Shown: piece after piece, positions 10,605 through 11,591 of the stretch
Layout: every line of letters begins with the position of its first letter
Position numbering within the stretch: the first letter of the stretch is position 1
NCBI GenBank assembly: GCA_030019415.1
Contig: JASEEX010000001.1
Location: forward strand, 40,403 to 88,088
DNA length: 47,686 nucleotides
Origin: Thermodesulfovibrionales bacterium
GTDB lineage: Bacteria > Nitrospirota > Thermodesulfovibrionia > Thermodesulfovibrionales > SM23-35
Reading direction: 5' to 3'
Position numbers and translations under genes: made by a program
Notes under the pieces: generated by a model
What the model was told of the DNA's origin: nothing
What the model saw: the letters and a program-made list of their open reading frames with translations, nothing else
The model's database searches: none

Positions 10605-11025
10605 TCGTCTTTACCTCTATTCCATTTTTTTCTAAAAGTCCTGTTGTCACACCTTTACCTGCCCTTTTTTCACCAGAGACCCATACATATGTTACCCCGC
10701 ATGACGGACTCCCATCTTTAAAGATGGCCCTTTTTATCCTGAACATACCAGCAATCCTGAGGACCTCTTCCGCTCCTTTAACTAAACTCTCTGTATAATC
10801 AATGCCATCTCTGTCTACGACCTCAGATTTTTGATCCAGAACAATTCTACCATTGCCTTTCGTAAACTGTACAGGTGGTCTTGGAGTCGGAAGACCTCCG
10901 AGTTGCTCGGGGCAGACAGGAATAGCCTTACCTGATGATACGAGTTCGACTATCCTTCTGTCTTCGCTATTTGTCCCATTATATCTCGTGTTAAAGCCTG
11001 CAAGGCACGCGCTAACGAGGAACAT
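10591..11025 (-). CDS. DUF523 family protein
   Basis: MFLVSACLAGFNTRYNGTNS...VCPEQLGGLPTPRPP...FKDGSPSCG. Confidence 0.9.
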   Translation of the reverse strand: MFLVSACLAGFNTRYNGTNSEDRRIVELVSSGKAIPVCPEQLGGLPTPRPPVQFTKGNGRIVLDQKSEVVDRDGIDYTESLVKGAEEVLRIAGMFRIKRAIFKDGSPSCGVTYVWVSGEKRAGKGVTTGLLEKNGIEVKTIDSL

Positions 11026-11100
11026 AACAAATTATACCAAAACGGAAGCATCTCTTTTTTTGTGATGAAAATTAATGACATTTATAAGCTGTGAGTATAA

Positions 11101-11225
11101 ATGGCAGGATATAGTATCTTCGCTCATTCTCGTCCCGCACCACTCCGAGGCTTTTGCCTCTTTATTATAAATATTCTCATTGGACTATCGGCAAAAGAAA
11201 CCGCTCAAATACTATATCCTGCCAT
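11101..11225. repeat. 17-bp inverted repeat pair within the MITE-like element
   Basis: atggcaggatatagtat (11101-11117) and its exact reverse complement atactatatcctgccat (11209-11225). Confidence 0.9.
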
Positions 11226-11270
11226 TTATTACTGTTTACAGACCTTAATATTGCAAAAAACATTATAAAA

Positions 11271-11439
11271 AGAGAGGGCAGATGTGCTGAAAAAGCCCTG
11301 CCATCGACACCTTATAGCCCTTACGAGTGGCCTGCCAGCCTTTTGCCAAAAGGCACAAAAGGTTAAGAATGCGGCCACGTGTATCATAATCAAATCCTGT
11401 CGATTTGCAGGGGTTTTGAAGCATGTCTGCCCTCTTGTC
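11271..11439. repeat. Long imperfect inverted repeat within the MITE-like element
   Basis: agagagggcagatgtgctgaaaaagccctgccatcgac (11271-11308) pairs with gtcgatttgcaggggttttgaagcatgtctgccctcttgtc (11399-11439). Confidence 0.75.
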
Positions 11440-11591
11440 TTTGCAACGTTTAGGTAGATTCATGGTTAACCTTGTCACGAAAAAAGAGATGTTTACTACC
11501 AAAACTTCATACTTGCATTTTGCCTTAAGATATGCTAAAGTCATCCCGATAATAATCCCGATAATAAAGGTCTAAAACAATAAAAAATTCC

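Follow-up and report, generated by a model that had tools for sequence, protein, structure and literature searches.

Nested mobile layers and strand-specific folds in a 453-bp feature of a Thermodesulfovibrionales genome

In the window analyzed here, a stretch of 47,686 nucleotides from a Thermodesulfovibrionales bacterium (GenBank assembly GCA_030019415.1, contig JASEEX010000001.1), the 453-bp feature at positions 11044–11496 is very probably made up of three nested layers, namely a MITE (element A), a module in its interior (module B) and a separate insertion (element C), with strand-specific folds of B and C. What the two folded modules B and C might do is discussed below as a candidate activity only. 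When the 453 bp were compared with the genome of origin (1.94 Mb in 166 contigs), many partial matches were obtained and a second full-length copy was absent, and the partial matches split the feature into three pieces. The first-pass annotation had taken the feature for a single 453-bp MITE or a decayed IS with incidental internal palindromes, and the TIRs and the target-site duplication (TSD) do sit at the 453-bp ends. Nevertheless, that reading is highly improbable, because all six other copies are only 214–233 bp long and lack positions 11243–11454, which refutes a single 453-bp element, and both 11243–11454 and 11097–11229 have independent copies elsewhere. A non-autonomous TIR element with 9-bp TSDs and six further copies therefore stands, but 453 bp as one element does not, since a 212-bp element (11243–11454) lies inside one of about 237 bp and 11097–11229 is also found far outside the MITE. 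The two nested inverted repeats described earlier are real (41 nt at 78% identity, 11097–11137/11189–11229, and 29 nt at 83%, 11273–11301/11407–11435), and they come from two different repeat families.

Element A (11044–11496, unstranded) is delimited by its TIRs, its TSD and its six other copies. The left TIR (11044–11065, plus strand, GGAAGCATCTCTTTTTTTGTGA) agrees at 19 of 22 positions with the reverse complement of 11475–11496, the right TIR (GTAAACATCTCTTTTTTCGTGA on the minus strand), and a perfect 9-bp direct repeat, TACCAAAAC, abuts both TIRs on the plus strand (11035–11043 and 11497–11505), a match with a chance of about 8e-6 at that fixed position. The window copy measures 453 bp because it contains the 212-bp insertion C and a 4-bp duplication, and it would measure 237 bp without both. 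As had been anticipated, further copies with different 9-bp flanks are present in the same genome: the six other full copies share the TIRs and have 9-bp duplications of their own. Comparison of the 9 bases outside each end in the seven copies, including that of the window, gave 9/9 matches in five, 8/9 in one and 8/9 with a 1-bp shift in one. When the genome was scanned with the TIR pattern GKAAGCATCWCYWWTTYCGTGA, allowing up to three mismatches, 19 ends were found, and a control pattern gave none. Such ends are rare among relatives, being present in 12 of 61 genomes (own genome included) at up to two mismatches. An autonomous IS with the TIRs of A was not found in the own genome or in 60 relatives, and no transposase was recognized by eye among the ORFs adjoining A-type TIRs in these genomes. 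The reported absence of a transposase inside the feature was borne out as well, with no Pfam match for the ORFs 11263–11544 (minus strand) and 11154–11366 (plus strand). Its TIRs of 22 bp (about 4–30 bp are usual in MITEs), its 9-bp TSD, its short length (214–237 bp), its seven full copies and the lack of any Pfam domain inside identify A as a MITE family mobile in this lineage and, as a MITE, an ordinary one.

Element A lies in the gap that separates a PF04463 gene, whose ORF starts at 11025, from a multihaem cytochrome gene (11592). A spacer of 18 bp with a TATAAT-like stretch lies between the ATG of the PF04463 gene (11025, minus strand) and the start of A upstream of it, and the insertion of A may separate this gene from its promoter. 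The site without A and one repeat would read ...aaattataccaaaacttcatac.... Among the other copies of A, one (L084, C79:15090-15322) has an internally rearranged B, with a partly inverted core and a TSD that still matches at 8/9, and at two further loci of the own genome (L096 and L097, contigs C111 and C122) single A-type ends adjoin another dispersed palindromic repeat starting GTCATTGCGAGG.

Element C (11243–11454, plus strand) is a separate 212-bp insertion with the ends CCTTAATATTGCA and TGCAACGTTTAGG, absent from the other copies of A and with copies of its own elsewhere. It is flanked on the plus strand by CAGA (11239–11242) and TAGA (11455–11458), which match at 3/4 positions and, by comparison with C-free copies of A, represent a probable 4-bp target duplication; a copy of A without C reads TTCATAGATTGATGG across the insertion site. 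Clean 4-bp duplications were found at other copies of C (TTTA/TTTA in L005 and TTAA/TTAA in L190). Thus, C has the TIRs (ends CCTWAAYRTTGCA) and the TSD of a MITE, a clean duplication not being seen in every copy. Matches to C were obtained in 15 of 61 genomes, with at most 9 per genome. Its structured core (11277–11431) folds on the window plus strand, where 12 of the 33 predicted pairs show double changes and the wobbles give a GU:AC ratio of 33:2. Element C is therefore multicopy and covarying, and it folds on one defined strand.

Module B is a unit of about 130 nt in the middle of A (11097–11229). A covariance model, R1, was built on the window minus strand of B, and its match on this strand (11096–11230; C78:51498-51632) scored 133.7 bits. 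In the predicted minus-strand fold, P1 is a long stem that closes the structure, P2 a hairpin and P3 an inner helix. In P1, the 5' arm on the folding strand (11209–11229) pairs with the 3' arm (11097–11117), and in P3 positions 11151–11158 (CTTTTGCC on the plus strand) pair with 11190–11197 (GGCAAAAG on the plus strand). From 44 aligned copies the structure was derived as a P1 of 17 bp, a variable hairpin P2 and the P3 pairing CUUUUGCC:GGCAAAAG. The stems diverge between copies yet stay paired, and the loops (GAGCGG ... CUCGGAG ... GAGAAUGAGCG) are nearly invariant. In the window copy P2 is truncated, and this copy itself may be inactive.

The fold of B is backed by covariation. Both partners vary in 24 of 34 pairs of the building set, with 202 double-change cells versus 60 after shuffling, and the signal is lost when the partner is shifted by 1–3 columns. 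In 95 copies from seven further genomes, the alignment of which was fitted to the model and hence leans towards the structure, 28 of 34 pairs covary (528 cells versus 133 shuffled), including 6 of the 8 pairs of P3. Since the copies of B share descent, p-values overstate their independence. The folding strand was revealed by the mismatches of P1: on the strand as first written they were 58 A.C versus 11 G.T, which implies G.U wobbles on the opposite strand, that is, the window minus strand. Counted gap-free, with GU and AC penalized equally, the arm wobbles gave GU:AC ratios of 8:0 for the own genome, 20:2 for a distant genus, 30:6 for a set retrieved with a loop pattern and 100:9 for a 94-copy set; the loop-pattern set was chosen without P1, so its bias does not stem from the model. 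The direction of the neighbouring genes makes no difference to the asymmetry, and transcription-coupled mutation bias was discarded as its source on this ground. The folding strand is predicted to be more stable than the opposite one in 90 of the 95 copies (-57.9 versus -44.1 kcal/mol in the window copy). These data, which include the covariation expected of a structured RNA with a common one-strand fold, show B as a multicopy, covarying module folding on one defined strand.

Replication could also preserve the complementarity of the P1 arms, through template switching or through correction of one arm by the other, with no selection on structure. At two matching sites of the genus g26 (L123/L115 and L110/L113) sister species carry the interior of B in opposite orientations, with the P1 arms in place and nearly unchanged, which indicates that the loop of B can flip, and the arms show paired changes there even though the flanks are about 90% identical. 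However, such a process predicts neither that GU outnumbers AC in keeping with the orientation of the module itself nor that the short inner helix P3 covaries. As the whole explanation it is thus unlikely, although it may contribute to P1, and selection on a one-strand fold remains our reading of B.

Module B occurs almost only in Nitrospirota and is a phylum-wide family. A search of GTDB genomes with a gapped loop pattern gave 37 loci, 35 of them in Nitrospirota-type records and the remaining 2 in a single MAG labelled Nitrospinota, and the same pattern found no match in viral contigs, on which basis a phage origin was abandoned. With R1, 22 copies were detected in the own genome, and 39 of 61 genomes were positive, with 0–52 matches per genome in relatives; across the phylum, where fewer candidates were scored per genome, B was found in at least 58 of 296 genomes, mostly of the same order. 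When the flanks of B were traced among four sister genomes of one genus (G030, G041, G050 and G061), B was missing at many matching sites, some of which hold an unrelated terminator-like hairpin, and one site (L121) has B in two species and is empty in G030. In one gap B is present in a single species, and three sisters each have a different terminator-like hairpin (L134, L135 and L154 versus L105).

Element A is not the only vehicle of B. The module also lies within a second MITE type with the ends CCCRGATTATTCATAAA and 4-bp TSDs of the form YTAR (TTAG/TTAG in L240 and L241, CTAA/CTAA in L236). Neither MITE skeleton was recognizable by eye in about half of the own-genome copies, which may either have moved in an independent way or have lost their TIRs. 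TSDs surround B only where a MITE skeleton does, and B alone has no TIRs and TSD at its own ends, the columns outside P1 being unconserved. In G014, two TIRs separated by 1.8 kb were considered as an autonomous partner of the 4-bp-TSD MITE and set aside, as they belong to one broken and one whole MITE, and the two genes between them are not transposase-like. At this locus (L236 154-1945, G014:C48) the two B-bearing MITEs, with identical inverted ends, bracket two host-type genes in a transposon-like arrangement.

Because the fold is specific to a single strand and many copies of B have no recognizable TIRs, B might be self-mobile as folded ssDNA, like REPs or the hairpins of IS200/IS605, through a Y1 (HUH) transposase, in which case the wobble bias would reflect ssDNA folding. 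The number of Y1 genes correlates with the copy number of B (Spearman 0.52, and 0.35 outside the own family), but phylogeny or general transposon load can produce such a correlation, and G020 has 10 copies of B and no Y1 match. Moreover, the 44-copy alignment (A1) shows no conserved base beside P1, the TSDs of B inside MITEs belong to the MITE, and the single close Y1/B neighbour appears to be a Y1 element that carries a flanking repeat of its own and was inserted into a copy of B. In that locus (L172 1293-2110, G050:C73) the Y1 gene carries its own AGGGACAGCG inverted repeats, and the apparently interrupted copy of B adjoins a tandemly duplicated acyltransferase-like gene. The Y1 linkage thus amounts to a weak correlation with exceptions and one misleading neighbour, and Y1 was not retained as the mover of B, the evidence for it being correlation and the neighbouring case being explained by insertion. 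Self-mobility as ssDNA is accordingly a doubtful, though by no means negligible, possibility.

The position of B relative to genes was then considered. Copies follow a stop codon by a few bases, and the next start lies about 24 bases beyond them. Where both neighbouring genes run in the same direction, 47 copies of the large set have the folding strand antisense to them and 13 have it sense (p = 1e-5); the corresponding numbers in the first set are 21 and 6. With ORFs around B taken from a mechanical call and copies of one genome related to each other, p-values are indicative only. The under-representation of sense copies between co-directional genes is the main argument for an RNA-level effect that does harm in sense transcripts; a replication-fork bias could equally well produce the orientation pattern. 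If B were a conventional cis-regulatory RNA (a riboswitch or leader), or if it terminated the upstream gene, this would explain the conserved loops and covarying helices, the location directly after stop codons and the terminator-like hairpins of sister species at some of the same gaps. Either role is nonetheless quite unlikely, since co-directional neighbours mostly have the folding strand antisense to them in both sets, the neighbouring genes vary from copy to copy, and presence and copy number are patchy. The genes downstream of B do not form a single functional class read in the direction of the folding strand, and with its mostly antisense orientation B was dropped as a riboswitch. An integron attC identity, prompted by the post-stop position, was set aside on general grounds, the loops being too conserved and no arrays being seen.

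Judging by the shortage of sense copies, the fold of B would more likely act as RNA than as ssDNA, although routine transcription is not obvious for a folding strand that is mostly antisense to its neighbours. As the activity of B and C we tentatively prefer a transcript-ending or transcript-cutting effect, which is possible rather than probable. Somewhat more doubtful is the broader proposal that B and C are mobile structured RNAs of a new class, small modules that spread in Nitrospirota within different transposon skeletons and are retained because one strand folds into an active RNA that would, for instance, cut itself, end transcripts or guide its own movement; under this proposal RNA activity would account for the rarity of sense copies in operons.

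The history of the feature was very probably as follows. An element A of about 237 bp, with module B as its interior, was placed between the PF04463 gene start and the multihaem cytochrome gene (11592), most likely through a trans-acting transposase working on the 22-bp TIRs and duplicating 9 bp. Later, C, with its own TIRs and probable 4-bp TSD, entered A beside B. We infer that B and C are passenger modules selected as single-stranded structures, and a sense fold of B would disturb the mRNA containing it, leaving sense copies under-represented.

Several known systems resemble parts of this arrangement. Prokaryotic MITEs (PMC10969869) resemble A in their size and the length of their TIRs, in having 9-bp direct repeats, in lying between genes without a transposase of their own and in being foldable, QMITE2 of Coxiella, for example, having direct repeats of 7–9 bp, TIRs of 23–29 bp and a core of 113–145 bp (PMC10969869), and A fits among them fully. 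Unlike in those, the core of A is a strand-specific covarying module common to another MITE type and to TIR-less copies, and C is nested inside A. ERIC, Correia and BOX/RUP/SPRITE repeats are, like B and C, about 130 bp long, intergenic, palindromic and multicopy in a bacterial group (in part from PMC10969869). Module B differs from them in its one-strand wobble bias, invertible interior and antisense bias, properties measured in B alone, and the sequences of B and C were compared with these repeats through Rfam only. REP/BIME sequences with RAYT (Y1) and the hairpins of IS200/IS605 share with B an extragenic location, single-strand folding and a multicopy nature; however, E. coli REPs span about 14–40 nt (PMC12306157), whereas B has about 130 nt with an inner helix, and its relation to Y1 genes is a weak correlation. 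The structured RNAs of Rfam (riboswitches, ribozymes) combine covarying helices and nearly invariant loops as B does, but B is mobile, mostly antisense to genes and without a match at gathering score. Against Rfam, B and C gave nothing at the gathering score over the element, in the window or at the copy loci, and by E-value a chance-level match only. Narrow literature searches, one of them pairing Nitrospirae with miniature inverted-repeat elements, yielded nothing, an account under another name being conceivable. We call B and C uncatalogued in this sense, that is, without an Rfam match and without a hit in those narrow searches.

The unusual part of the feature is thus the nesting of two uncatalogued mobile modules of different repeat families, each constrained to a one-strand fold, in one 453-bp stretch. 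MITE interiors are usually seen as leftover, and here a conserved one-strand fold is common to different MITE types. The covariance model and the list of copies make the RNA and ssDNA readings testable. If the fold of B is an active RNA, it would represent a structured RNA class that came to light by way of its mobility; an ssDNA fold would point to an unrecognised way of moving.
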